DNA from: Apteryx mantelli
Lineage: Eukaryota; Chordata; Aves; Apterygiformes; Apterygidae
Reading direction: 5' to 3'
NCBI RefSeq assembly: GCF_036417845.1
Contig: NC_089978.1
Coordinates: 87,042,007-87,106,006, forward strand
Length of the DNA: 64,000 nucleotides
A program made the position numbers and the translations under genes. The notes beneath the pieces are model-generated. The model was given only the letters and a program-made list of their open reading frames with translations. It searched no databases and was not told where the DNA came from. Positions 6,189 to 31,659 of this stretch are shown here, one piece after another (the stretch's first letter is position 1; every line of letters starts with the position of its first letter).

Positions 6189-6452
6189 CTGTTGCGATCC
6201 CTGCTGCAATTCCTGCTGCAATCCCTGCTGCAATCCCTGCCATGATTTGCATTGCAATCCCTGCTACAATTCCTGCTGCAATTACCACTGCAATTCTGGC
6301 TGCAGGTCCTGCTGCAATCCCAACTGTGATCCCAGCTGCAATTCCTGCTGCAATCCCTGCTGCAATGCCCACTGCAATTTCTGCTGCAATCCCCACTGCA
6401 ATTCCCCCTGCAATCCCTGCTGCGATTCCCACTGCGATTCCCACTGTGATTC
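6189..6452. repeat. Minisatellite, 22 units of 12 bp
   Basis: The unit is close to CTGCTGCAATCC, with variants at most positions (CCACTGCAATTC, CCACTGCGATTC, CAACTGTGATCC). Counting in register from 6189 to 6452 gives 264 bp, exactly 22 units, with no indel that breaks the 12-bp phase. Because 12 is a multiple of three, several frames on both strands stay open across it. They read as tetrapeptide arrays: Ala-Ala-Ile-Pro and Cys-Cys-Asn-Ser/Pro on plus, Gly-Ile-Ala-Ala and Arg-Asn-Cys-Ser on minus. Those frames follow from the repeat and do not indicate a gene. Unit divergence suggests an array of some age rather than a fresh expansion. Confidence 0.95.
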
Positions 6453-9400
6453 CTGTGACCACCACAGGGAACCTCAAGGCTGGCCCCCTGCCAGCCAGTC
6501 ACCAAGCACTGAGATTATTGCAGTTTTGGCAGGGCCTGTGGCAGCGACCAGTCCTTACAGATGAAAGGGACCCGCATGACTTTTTTTTTTTTTTTTTTAA
6601 TGTAGGATTTGGCAGACAAGCTAGCCAGGGGCATTAGTGGCATAACATGAATAATAGTTTCTGACAGAAGGAGGTCACACAGCCCATTTCAGCCCATCCA
6701 CCTACGTGGCAGAAAGAAACATGATGAGGCAGGAACACTAAGTTCTTGTCTAAGTTTTCTGACCATTCACTGTGCTACTGTAGATGCTTTGGCAGCCTTT
6801 CTAGCTTCGTTGCATGTTAATTAATGTGGCTGGTAAGAATTTTTTTTTTTTACCAAAAAAAAAGAGGATTTTGCTGACAAGGTGCCTCAGCTCCCTTCCA
6901 GTATAATTTTTGGCTGTAATTGTGGAAAGTCTCCTTCTTCTGTAAAAACAATGTCGTCTTAAAAGTTTAGTTTAACTCATTGGTATGGTTCTACGTTCAC
7001 CGGAAACAATGGTTTTGGTAGATGAATTCTTCTGTTAACTGGTTTGACAAATTAATTCAAGCACAGAAAAAAAAAAGTGAGGTCTCTTGAGCACTTCAGA
7101 ACCAAATGATACATTTTGAAAAATGACTGGGTTTTACTTTCTGAGCCATTCCTTGTAATAAGTCTACAAGACATTTTTTTTTTCAAGGCTGTTCAGATCT
7201 CAACTGCATTCCACCAAACTCCATGGAGAAACCTCACCTGATCTAAGAGGTTATTTGTTCTATCCTGATGAAGCAGAACCTAAGCTGCTACCAGCTGGTA
7301 TATTTGCACCAATATGCTTAGGCGGCAGACGTATCTGCAGTGACATTGGTGATTTGTTATCTGGAAAATAACATTTTGATTAGCAGAATCAGTATTTTTG
7401 CCAGGTTCCCTGAACAGGGCCCTCCTGCCTTGACCCAGGACCCTGGTAGACACAGTGCAGCCAAGGCTGGCTCTGACTTTCAGGAGGCCTGGCCTATTAG
7501 TAAGGTAGGTCTTGACTTGCTACTGCAGCAGAGCATTTCTGGTGCCCTCCATACTGTGCTACATCCAAAGAAACATGGAGCTCCTTTTTATGAAGGTGTG
7601 TGTGCGGCCTTCATCGCTGCATTTATTGTTCATGTTAGTTCATGCTATGCTCCCTTTCATGAGCCTGTTTTGCTCTCACTTCAATTTAATTTGGCCTCTT
7701 CATTGTATGAAGCAGTATTAAGTAACCATACACTCTCCAGTTACATTATATTTGCTTGTTGCTTAAGTGGAGTCTTATCAGAATCAGTAACACCACACAA
7801 TACCCTACTTTTTTGCATGTAACTTACTTAAATGCTTCCTTTCTAAGGTAAAGAGCTGCAGATGTGCTCCAGGGCTCTTTACTCAGAGTATATATCAAGA
7901 GAGATGGAGATTTTTTGGTTTATTTGTTTCTAATTCCCTTTTTTTTAATAATTAAAAAAAATATATATATATATAGTTTGAAGAAATGCTGCAGGCATTT
8001 TTCGTAATACTTCAAATACTTCTGAACGGTTAAAATCTAATAGAAAAATGTTCTCTCACCTCTCAGACCCTGTTGTCTGGGATGTAGAAAAAGCTGTGTG
8101 CATCCCACCTTCCATGAGCTCATCCCTGAGTGCCCCGTGTATGTGCAAGAGAGGGAAGGGATGTGGCTTGGAGGTAGCAAAGGGGCAGTTTGGTAACCCC
8201 CACATGAGCATAGGTCTCCTTCCCTGTTGCCCTAAAGCATGATCTTTTTGCAGTGCTGCAAAAGTAGGTTTGGAGCTTTTTTGGCAGTATTTTGTTCTGG
8301 TATAAATGGCAGCACAATATACAGGAGGGTGGAAAACTGTGTTGGCGGAGAGACCCACTTCAACCCTTATCATTCGAACACTATATTACCCAGACTGGCC
8401 CTAAATATACTGGTAATGCTAGCATGAGAATTATTACACTCCATTCAAAATGAATCTTTCTTTTCAAGGGAAAATTTGTGTTGAAGCCAAGTTTTAAGAT
8501 GTCAAATTCTGTAGCTGTTCGCACTTCTACTGCAATTGGAGGAACATATTACAATGATGTTTTTGAAATAACCTGCAAGGAGGTTAGGTACCCTAAGTCT
8601 CATGACAATTCAAAATCCCTAGACTCTTTTGGAAATCACCCTTTATTTGCTGTACCAGTTTCCTCACTCCAGCAAAAATATGCTTCATTCACTTCTTTGC
8701 AACTGCTCCTTATTTCATTTGGGAAAAAGGAAAGCACGAGTTAGTTCCACTTCATTCAAAAGTGATACAGCAATTTTTCAGCATTTTCCCTGAGCTGTGT
8801 CCTTGAATTCACTTTGTCTATTCAGCAGCCATTTTTCATCCCAACTGTACTTCTGGCACAGCCAAGTCAGACTGGTGATGAGCAAGGCCAATGGAAGATC
8901 ATGTCTGTATCGAGCAAAATGCCTGGCTCCCTAGCTACAAATAAGGCTGTGCCAGAACTCCCAGCTTAAGTGAGAATTTTGTGCTAAGGCAGTGAGGTCA
9001 CTGTGACCTTCAGAAAGATTACTTCATGCATTTTTACTTCAATAGGTGTCAACAACTGTGCTGAGATAGCTTGGTTTGTGCTGGAGCCCAGAAAGGGCAA
9101 GAGAAATTAGACACTTCGCTTTGGTTGGCATTTTAAATCAAAAAAAAAGTCCTGCTTTCTTTTTATTTGCTCAGCCTAATACAAACCTGCTTTTATGTTT
9201 ACCTTTATGGTCCTGTAATGAAATTCAAACTCAGAAGCAGAGCACAGCAGCTCAGTAAGGGAGCAGTGACCGAAAGACCTCCCTCTGTAACCTTTCAAGA
9301 CCACCCTTTCAGGGCTACCTCTTGTTTTTGTCTAACCTGTTTTAACTCCACCAAGGCACCTTGCTGCCCACATCCAACCAGACCTCAGCACAGCCCTGGC

Positions 9401-28400: not shown

Positions 28401-31291
28401 TTAATAGTTGGGATCCAGGCTATCCTAAACTTCCCAACGGTACCAGGCGGCTTTAACTAGAACGCTTCTCATTTCTGAAATGTTCAGTTTGGGCAAATTG
28501 AACAAAACGGCAATTAGCCTCAAGGTATCCAGGGATCACCCTCTATCTCCTGTGTGCACATGATGCCATGAAACTGTTTTGGGAAGCGACAAAGAGAGTA
28601 TCCCTGACCCTCGCTGTCTCTACAGGAGGAGGCAGAGCCGCTCCAAAATCTTTGATTTGCTGTGTGTGCTTCAACGGCACTGGCGGTGCTTGGTTTTACA
28701 GCACCAAAATATTAACTGCAGTAATTTGAGATAGCCCATAAAGAAATCTCGTGCAACTGTGTAAGCACAGCGATATGGTTAGAGTTGCTGTCTGACACTC
28801 AGTCCTGGTGGGATCAAGGCCAGGGTCCACAGTCCTTCCTGGCTCTTCCTAAAATGCAATTGTCAGTTTTTAAGCAGTGTTTGTCCCTTACAGAGCTATA
28901 AAACTACCTTTTAAGATGCAGAAAGACACAAAATCATTGTGAAGTTCTTCTGTTTTCCAGTATAGTCTGTATTTTTTAAAGGCTTCCAAAAATCATAAGA
29001 ATTGAAGGGAAACTATGCAGAGGTGGACCCTACTTTTTCAAGAAAGCAGAAACCAGAGAATGCTGAAAAATAAAAACCATCACTCTAAACCATTACTTGT
29101 TTCACTGCACAAATGCCAAATATATCAGCTATGTTTTGTCTTCTCTGTCCTTTCTGGGTAAATGCCAGGATCATGAACATCAGGGCTATTAAAGCAGCTG
29201 CAGCTTCGTTAGACACAGGCCTGCCTATGTCTGAAAGTGAACATCACCTTTAGCAAAACACAAAATCTCTTAAAATCTGCCAGAGAGATTTTTCCCTACC
29301 ATGGTTGCAGCTGAGCCCTAGGATAGAAGAATTAGTGGAGCATTTGATTTCTGCACAGCACAAGGCCAGGAGGGTCAGGGGCAGTCGCGTCACTCTGGGC
29401 CACCTTCACCTTCGCCCTCAGCAAGCTCCATCCTGCAGGGGCCAGCGGGGTTGGCCAGAGTCAGGGCAGGCACGGGCTGCTCACGGGAAGGAGTGGGGTG
29501 TTTTTCCTGGATCCAGTTAGGAGCGAGTCACCTGTTTATTATTTATTTCAATTATTCCTCCCTGATAAATTACACAAAAAAAGGTCAGCACTGTTATGCC
29601 ACCCTACTTGCATCCTTGCTGTTACATGTTCCCGTTGTGACTTTCTTGCCCCATAACGGTTGCAAGTGCGCGGAGCAACTACCCGACAGGTCGCCAGGCT
29701 CTTTCTCCCAGAGGCCGGATGTGGTGTCATCTGCTTCCCTCTGCTTTTTGTTTGTGGTATTTTTATTTTTATTTTGCAGAAGGGTGGGGTACTCTTGTGT
29801 TTCTTTCTCCTCTCCTCCTCCAAAGATGGGCTGAAACTTGACCTCCTGATTGTTCAGCCCAGACGCTCTCAGGGAAGCACTGAGTGGTAAATGAGGCTCC
29901 AAATGCAGGAAGAGATTACTGTATTTTTCTTTTCCTTTTTAAAATGTTGAATAGATGAAAATAGATGGTAATCAACAAACCTGTGGCTAGAGGAAAAATC
30001 CCTTTAACTCACATTTTACTTCAATTACATTCAGGACAAAGAAACACATTGCACCATGTGCATGAATAGATGCTTTATTATTCAAAACAAGCTTCAAAGA
30101 GCATTACGTCCCCTATAGAAAATATGCAATCAGTGTTTAATTCAATGGTAGGATGCAAATTTAAATTCCCATAAGGGGAAGACTGTTAATGCCATTTAAA
30201 TTGGTTGTAAATTACAGATAATACGCTTGAGACCCGAATACAGATTAGCAGAGTGTTGCTTTATGAATCCAGCCCTACTTTGAACTTATTGTGTATTTAT
30301 CTATGGACAATAAGACAATGAGGGCTTGTTTACACTCACATTTTGTTATCTGTCTCTGTACATACGCAGAAAAAGAACATTTTGCTTTTAAGATGCAGCA
30401 GATACTAGTTCCACTGTGATGAGGATTGCTTATTTGGAGATGCTCTTTGGGTGCAACCATATCTGCCTTCCTATCTGTCTGCTCCAGTGTAGCATGTTTC
30501 AAGCCCTCAAATCACTCAAAATTTAGCCTAAAGGAATCACCATTTCCCTATTTCATTAGCAGCTGATGGAAAGTCCTGCTTACAACTCACCAGTTATGCA
30601 TGTACTCAGGACAGCAGCCCTTTGCAGGAATCAGAGGTGGCCGATGTCTTTGCTGCGTTCAGTAGCATGACCATTTAGCGACTGTGAGTACAGTGTGTCG
30701 CTCCCCATTACATAGCTGCTGAGGGAGAAGCCCAGGCTCTAGGTGAGAACTTTGGGGGGGGGGGGTTTTCCAGAGAAAAACAAGTTCTGTGGCTTTATCC
30801 TTTGCACACCAAAATAATCATTAAAAACAACTGATACACTTTAAGACTAGGCTGTTTAAAATGAGCTGTGCATATCATACGCTACCACGTCTGTTTACTG
30901 TTACTCTCTAGCTCATTTCTTACCCATTCTTTTGCTGCGTTTGTATAAGACAATAACTTATAGACCCAAGAATTTTTATTTTGTGAAAAGCAACGAACTA
31001 GTCATTTGAGAAGCAGCTCTGCAAACCGCTAGTGGTTTGAATGAGCTTTTCTGGTATGGATCCCATTAATGGCACGCTAGCAACCATTTTGCTGGGCTCT
31101 GTCATGAGAAATTTTGGAGCACGTTTCTGCACATTCTTCAGGTCAAGAATGCATTTTGTGTGTCCCCAGGTGTGTACGTGTTACATCAGCATATTAGGTA
31201 TTATAGCATATTATAAACTGAGTAAAACTATTTTGTGTAGCAAAAGCACCATACTTTGTGGTTACTTTTTTTTCACGGCAGTACCGCTTAT
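28401..31291. other. Unique non-coding sequence left of the CR1/U2 insertion
   Basis: No gene is recognised. A weak tRNA-like patch lies at 28767-28826. 29930-30300 is AT-rich and repeat-free, with an ATGCAAAT octamer at 30153-30160. A run of about 13 G residues lies near 30752-30765. Nothing else stands out. Confidence 0.5.
28767..28826 (+). other. Weak tRNA-like or tRNA-SINE-like patch
   Basis: GGTTAGAG resembles a tRNA D-loop. About 25 bases later, CCTGG-TGGGATCAAGG-CCAGG resembles a T arm with a five-base stem but an over-long loop. The acceptor stem cannot be closed convincingly. It may be a degenerate tRNA pseudogene, the head of an old SINE, or coincidence. Confidence 0.15.
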
Positions 31292-31560
31292 CACAGAATC
31301 ACAGAATCACAGAGTGGTTGAGGTTGGAAGGGACCTCTGGAGATCATCTAGTCCAACCCCCCTGCTCAAGCAGGGTCACCTAGAGCACATTGCACAGGAT
31401 CGCGTCCAGGTGGGTTTTGAATATCTCCAGAGAAGGAGACTCCACAACCTCTCTGGGCAACCTGTTCCAGTGCTCTGTCACCCTCACAGTAAAGAAGTTT
31501 CTCTTCATATTCAGATGGAACTTCCTGTGTTTTGGTTTGTGCCCGTTGCCTCTTGTCCAA
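31292..31560 (-). mobile_element. CR1 LINE 3' end, minus strand
   Basis: Read on the plus strand this begins with CACAGAATCACAGAATCACAG, the complement of the tandem octamer at the CR1 3' terminus. It continues through GGTTGGAAGGGACCTCTGGAG, GATCATCTAGTCCAACCC, CAAGCAGGGTCACCTAGAGC, TTTTGAATATCTCCAGAGAAGG, ACTCCACAACCTCTCTGGGC and GTTGCCTCTTGTCC. This is an almost consensus avian CR1 3' region of about 270 bp, so it is a relatively young copy. It is 5'-truncated in an unusual way: where CR1 should continue, the sequence becomes T-rich (minus strand) and then U2 snRNA. Confidence 0.95.
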
Positions 31561-31569
31561 AAAGAAAAA

Positions 31570-31653
31570 GTCCTCTCATCGAAGATGCATCAGATATTAA
31601 ACTGATAAGAACAGATACTACACCTGATCTTAGCCAAAAGGCCGAGAAGCGAT
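31570..31653 (-). pseudogene. U2 snRNA 5' fragment (nt 1-84), fused to CR1
   Basis: The minus strand starts exactly at the U2 5' end (ATCGCTTCTCGGCC). It runs 84 nt without an indel to GAGAGGAC, corresponding to U2 nucleotides 1-84. Compared from memory with human U2 I count about seven substitutions, mostly after nucleotide 65. The branch-point recognition segment around GTAGTA is intact. The rest of U2 (Sm-site region, stem-loops III and IV) is missing, and no snRNA-type upstream promoter element is apparent, so this is a non-functional copy. Between it and the CR1 tail lie about ten T-rich bases (CTTTTTCTTTTTGGAC). These could be untemplated, or a remnant of the U2 Sm region joined through the shared TTTTTGGA. 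Confidence 0.92.
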
Positions 31654-31659
31654 CTTATC

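Follow-up and report, generated by a model that had tools for sequence, protein, structure and literature searches.

U1 and U2 snRNA-CR1 chimeras in the genome of Apteryx mantelli: recurrent insertions that point to template jumping by a CR1 LINE

The closest described relatives of the element reported here are the mammalian U6/L1 and other snRNA-L1 chimeras (Doucet 2015, PMC4476161; Law & Burns 2026, PMC13174262). All snRNAs from U1 to U6 have been reported joined to L1 (PMC13174262), and snRNA chimeras with L2 and RTE have been reported as well (PMC4476161; PMC13174262), among them U6-L2 and U6-RTE chimeras in platypus and lizard (PMC4476161). Going by the cited parts of these papers, the eleven bird chimeras presented below resemble the snRNA-L1 chimeras in carrying an snRNA, often truncated, at the 5' end of the LINE, in being one insertion with a target-site duplication and in recurring as independent events. 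They differ in that the CR1 clade is used and that U1 and U2 are found, often 3'-shortened, with a T-rich linker at most seams and with short or no duplications. L2 shares with CR1 the need for its own 3' end, and the platypus U6-L2 duplications of 1-9 bp are as short as those of the bird chimeras, whereas the platypus U6 parts are almost all 5'-truncated (PMC4476161) and the snRNA match starts at nt 1-4 in 11/11 bird chimeras, always in sense. From birds, a single copy of a U6-CR1 element in turkey has been described, but a gap in the sequence kept its authors from a conclusion (PMC4476161). The passerine PittSINE and TguSINE1 also carry a small RNA on a CR1 tail, and template switching has been proposed for them (PMC5729268), but there the head is a tRNA and the element an amplified family, whereas among the bird snRNA chimeras no two junctions are alike and no sign of amplification was seen.

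The locus analyzed here lies in a stretch of 64,000 nt of the Apteryx mantelli genome, hereafter the window, and its anatomy can be read from the sequence. On the minus strand the order is GATAAG (CTTATC on the plus strand), U2 nt 1-87, the linker TTCTTTTT, a CR1 tail and again GATAAG, with U2 and CR1 head to tail. The 5' copy of the target-site duplication is read directly at 31654-31659 and scores as a 6-nt duplication in the flank test described below. It is followed by the U2 part (31567-31653), which starts at the exact 5' end of U2 and is identical to the seven U2 genes of the C37 array at 83 of 87 positions, the four mismatches all being transitions. The 8-nt linker (31559-31566) could be assigned neither to U2 nor to CR1. 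The 5'-truncated CR1 tail with its 3' end occupies 31291-31558 and differs from the majority of 27 tails at 8 of 260 positions. It ends in three octamers (31291-31314), one variant CTCTGTGA and then two perfect TTCTGTGA, and the 3' copy of GATAAG (31287-31292) overlaps the last octamer with its GA. All of these minus-strand features had been named in an earlier sequence-only reading, and the linker, the near-consensus tail with its octamers and the flanking CTTATC words are borne out; of the U2 part, which it had given as nt 1-84, the exact start stands and the extent is corrected to nt 1-87 by the genome's own U2 genes. Thus the locus has the build of a LINE-snRNA chimera, in which a sense snRNA heads a truncated LINE that keeps its 3' end, with U2 and CR1 lying within one target-site duplication.

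Both halves hold up when aligned to other copies in the same genome. The Rfam U2 model matches at 31653-31531 on the minus strand (94.1 bits, E = 1.6e-17), and a scan of the window with Rfam returned nothing besides U2, whether the cut-off was the gathering score or E = 1. Several other copies match the CR1 part at approximately 95% identity over 260 nt, and many more match its start at 96%. The CR1 part also matches the CR1 tail of a second U2 chimera, L028, at 90% over 261 nt, and that of a third, L029, at 81% over 227 nt, the latter element carrying an RVT_1 domain. With TTCTGTGA octamers (as defined for avian CR1 in PMC2612034) and relatives with reverse transcriptase, the tail is that of an avian-type CR1 LINE. 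A tRNA-CR1 SINE of the TguSINE1/PittSINE type was considered and rejected, the head being U2 and the number of tRNA genes in the window being 0. Elsewhere in the window, 6189-6455 hold a tandem array of about 36-nt (12-nt) units with the consensus CTGCTGCAATTC.

Covariance-model searches of the same genome gave 25 U2 and 39 U1 matches (from the best 46 of 73,984 and the best 42 of 26,736 candidates, respectively). Seven U2 and eleven U1 array genes are among the matches listed, and there are at least 46 non-array copies. We call a copy young if it matches the genes at 84.5% identity or more across a minimum of 81 nt, which applies to 12 among the 46 non-array matches listed; three of the 34 older ones (L016, L020 and L023) reach 84-88% identity, but only over 32-63 nt. 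Among these matches the young copies go together with CR1: a sense CR1 lies 8-58 nt downstream of the matched snRNA in 11/12 young against 0/34 older copies listed (P = 9e-10). Eight of the eleven chimeras contain U1 (L072-L078 and L083) and three contain U2 (the window locus, L028 and L029). The CR1 reference set included pieces of L028 and L029, which makes their rows in this count circular, and the CR1 identity of these two therefore rests on the separate matches and the RVT_1 evidence; in L029 the first approximately 500 nt after U2 have no independent CR1 match among the loci examined and no Pfam match. The CR1 3' end with its octamers was seen in 9/11 chimeras, while the CR1 of L083 ends short of the octamers and L078 yielded no such end. 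Among the array genes, no CR1 was present within 60 nt downstream in eleven U1 rows and one U2 row, and the seven U2 gene loci (L031-L037) gave no CR1 match.

Starts at nt 1-4, sense order and CR1 3' octamers are what is expected of target-primed reverse transcription that switches to a second RNA. We regard the window locus as the product of a single CR1 retrotransposition with a jump from CR1 RNA to U2, a reading to which we assign a probability of roughly 80%. The CR1 enzyme would nick the target, prime on the CR1 3' end at the octamers and copy approximately 268 nt of CR1 RNA; copying would go on from the 3' end of a U2 snRNA ending at about nt 87, giving a T-rich junction, until the copy reached the U2 5' end and the insertion closed, leaving a short target-site duplication. 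For the set as a whole we likewise infer that the enzyme jumped in the course of target-primed reverse transcription and so made the join, with acceptors that would often have been 3'-shortened U1/U2 molecules. The sequence-only reading had proposed such a jump to U2, and of this the single CR1-driven insertion is sustained, but the same data also fit a ligation of the two RNAs beforehand. Joining of U2 and CR1 RNA by an RtcB-type ligase, followed by reverse transcription of the fused RNA, would give the same order, orientation and duplication as a template jump, and Moldovan is said to have reported RNA ligation for human U6/L1 in 2019. PMC13174262, in the part cited, also gives ligation as a route next to template switching. 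The extra T-rich linker would nevertheless be more natural for an end-to-end jump. RtcB furthermore needs a 2',3'-cyclic phosphate or a 3' phosphate, whereas a 3' OH is expected on U1/U2 and on uridylated fragments that have escaped trimming by USB1 or a similar enzyme, and we consider prior ligation unlikely.

Two unrelated insertions, in which CR1 came to lie next to a U2 fragment already present or U2 next to a CR1 already present, would be helped by CR1 being common and by GATAAG having only 6 nt, two of them in the octamer, but we find this very improbable. A chance neighbor is difficult to reconcile with the proximity of sense CR1 to young copies (within 58 nt at 11/12, against 0/34 older copies listed), and among the matches listed the U2 part of the window otherwise matches just the seven array genes of U2 together with L028 and L029. 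Furthermore, the flank 5' of the snRNA and the flank 3' of CR1 at nine loci gave a summed match of 34 nt, compared with a mean of 20.7 nt after re-pairing (P = 0.00025; 20,000 re-pairings, with L078 and L083 omitted to leave the nine chimeras with an octamer end). True flank pairs thus match better than re-paired ones, as single insertions should. Shared flank amounts to 4-6 nt in 5/9 tested loci (GATAAG in the window, AAACAA in L028, TGGTT in L072, AAAT in L029 and GAAG in L073) and to 2-3 nt in 4/9, namely L074-L077, which have no convincing duplication; since the matches at single loci are this short, the claim of single insertion is a statistical one for the set, together with the window's own 6 nt. 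In divergence the two halves are compatible with a common age, no difference being seen between 4/87 in U2 and 8/260 in CR1 (P = 0.50, a weak test at 87 nt); for this comparison with the 27 CR1 tails L042 was removed by hand and tails failing the length filter, L029 among them, were dropped. That the window locus is one copy of a SINE-like family, headed by U2 and tailed by CR1, is in our view also very improbable. Such heads have a counterpart in the crocodilian SINEU, reportedly described by Kojima in 2015 as snRNA-headed SINEs with U1/U2-derived 5' heads on a retroposon, and said to be amplified families moved by Tx1. SINEU so described share the U1/U2 heads with the bird set but are amplified, whereas the bird set consists of single CR1 chimeras. 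Passerine tRNA-CR1 SINEs exist as well (PMC5729268). When the window's junction was sought elsewhere, as the sequence-only reading had proposed, the 146-nt query matched as a whole only itself among the best 40 of 648 candidates; the other 39 matches listed cover the U2 part or the CR1 part, with that of L040 extending 6 nt into the linker. A further point against such a family is that U1 and U2 lack an internal promoter.

The eleven chimeras themselves appear to be independent of each other. The snRNA 3' breakpoints lie at 87 (window), 106 and 187 (L029) for U2 and at 164, 163, 151-158 (L074, depending on the method), 156, 156, 119, 113-115 and 83 for U1, and no pair among the eleven has both breakpoints in common. 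The closest pair is L073 and L076, with U1 ends at 163 and 156 and CR1 starts approximately 11 nt apart, where the flanks are dissimilar and the common changes are at CpG only. Among the eight U1 chimeras 27 of 28 pairs have no non-CpG mutation in common, and the remaining pair, L077 and L083, has one. With hardly any mutation outside CpG in common, the U1 chimeras were each copied from an intact U1 product, and a mutated source behind all of them is rejected. Neither many copies with one head-body junction, as in families of the SINEU type (among the best 40 of 648 candidates), nor a common U1 source copy was found; the U1/U2-CR1 set is a recurrent accident, seen eleven times in this genome, and not an amplified family.

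A T-rich piece is present at the seam in 9/11 chimeras and absent in L073 and L076. Examples are TTCTTTTT in the window, T20 in L028, TAAGTTTTTTT in L072, eleven T after U1 in L074 and more than 30 T in L077. In L029, U2 is matched to nt 187, followed by A and then by TTTTT where the gene reads T; U2 may receive an A after transcription. A by-eye criterion, which asked for a run of five T or more from the end of the snRNA to the start of CR1 (for controls, in the approximately 15-17 nt before CR1), gave 9/11 chimeras against 1/19 ordinary 5'-truncated CR1 starts (P = 3.5e-5), or against 3/19 when runs crossing into CR1 are counted (P = 6e-4), both under a criterion chosen after the data had been seen, with counts entered by hand and chimera seams of unequal length. 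Two seams are doubtful, as the CR1 start of L029 was not placed independently and the T5 of L075 lies 16-20 nt before one BLAST start; not counting these as positive gives 7/11 against 1/19 or 3/19 (P = 0.0011 or 0.012). For comparison, when 17-nt pieces were drawn at random from the window, 3.4% contained such a run. Counting T automatically over the 12 nt that precede CR1 showed no difference between 10 chimeras and 14 controls (P = 0.29). Several of the automatic CR1 starts were wrong, falling in the U1 part in L073 and L076, at a late match in L075 and L078 and in the T run in L083, and the junctions were therefore scored by eye. The controls are copies similar in sequence to the window's own CR1 tail and are not matched to the subfamily of each chimera. 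Of L040-L059, 14/20 were used, leaving out L042 (the L073 site), L043, L052, L053 and L057 (which run off the locus) and L058 (fragmented); of L103-L112, 5/10 were used, leaving out L106, L109, L110 and L111 (no start inside) and L108 (upstream sequence resembling CR1). The linkers of L075 (plus strand) and L078 (minus strand) have the 14-mer TATTTTTATCTTTT in common, which is in no other locus examined and could be either chance in T-rich sequence or a template common to both.

As a tentative explanation, the T-rich linkers may be fossil oligo(U) tails, with the CR1 reverse transcriptase jumping end-to-end onto U1/U2 that had been shortened and uridylated by quality control. Consistent with this, the U2 part of the window stops 3 nt past a stem-loop predicted from the fold of U2 1-87 and before the Sm site, which we take to lie downstream of nt 87, and L077 stops 2 nt past the last predicted helix of U1 1-119. 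It fits less well that L028 and the full-length cases presumably retain the Sm site. Truncated U1/U2 without the Sm site are known decay forms, and those of U2 are reported to feed into a uridylylation pathway (Ishikawa 2014, 2018). Uridylation and degradation are also said to follow when snRNAs lose the Sm site or are shortened at the 3' end (PMC10584915). In human cells, the targets of DIS3L2, snRNAs included, carry oligo(U) tails of typically 6-8 nt, but according to the same source mature and partly trimmed snRNAs are mostly without uridylation, which is found on 3'-extended forms (PMC5069555). The seams would also fit untemplated dA added by the CR1 enzyme as it runs off the CR1 RNA before the jump. 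If the oligo(U) explanation were true, the genome would archive intermediates of snRNA decay from the germline, and LINE template jumping would favor uridylated decay products as acceptors. The T-rich seams offer a testable link between 3'-end decay of snRNAs and which RNA a LINE enzyme takes as acceptor.

In the titles and abstracts of the open-access papers listed, we found no U1- or U2-CR1 chimeras in birds, the turkey U6-CR1 copy being the nearest case, and it looks as if the kind is already known while CR1 with U1/U2 and T-rich seams is new as a variant. The set supplies for CR1 what the turkey U6-CR1 case left open. Suh is said in 2015 to have credited the low number of retrocopies in birds to CR1 needing its own 3' end. 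Since 11/12 of the recent dispersed U1/U2 copies found are CR1 chimeras, this restriction seems to hold, with template jumping as a way round it, in agreement with what had been proposed from the window's sequence. Each chimera could in addition serve as a presence/absence marker in bird phylogeny.

The sole exception among the 12 young copies listed is L071 (C3:140140293-140140456), a 99.4% match to U1 nt 2-164 that lies approximately 190 kb from the U1 array, has flanks unlike those of the array and is without CR1. Either a variant gene or a retrocopy that arose without CR1 would explain it, and it stands against a strict rule that a young copy is a CR1 chimera; lacking both CR1 and array flanks, it suggests that recent copies may also have arisen in ways other than CR1 chimeras. 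A search for U6 gave 12 weak matches, the best at 63 bits, and no clear intact U6 gene among the best 48 of 163,443 candidates. The 34 older U1/U2 copies (L079-L082, L084-L089, L094-L102 and L011-L025) are 67-88% identical to the genes and many are near full length, with no downstream CR1 found; they are possibly products of earlier, different machinery. With regard to the CR1 starts, those of the U1 chimeras L073 and L076 and of L050, L107 and L112 fall within a short stretch around GCTGATACACCAGAGGGCTGTGCTGCC, which is possibly a hotspot of CR1 5' truncation. Finally, the 5' flank of L075 ends in CCACTTACCTG directly before the U1 start GTACTTACCTG, so that a match between the target and the 5' end of U1 is possible.
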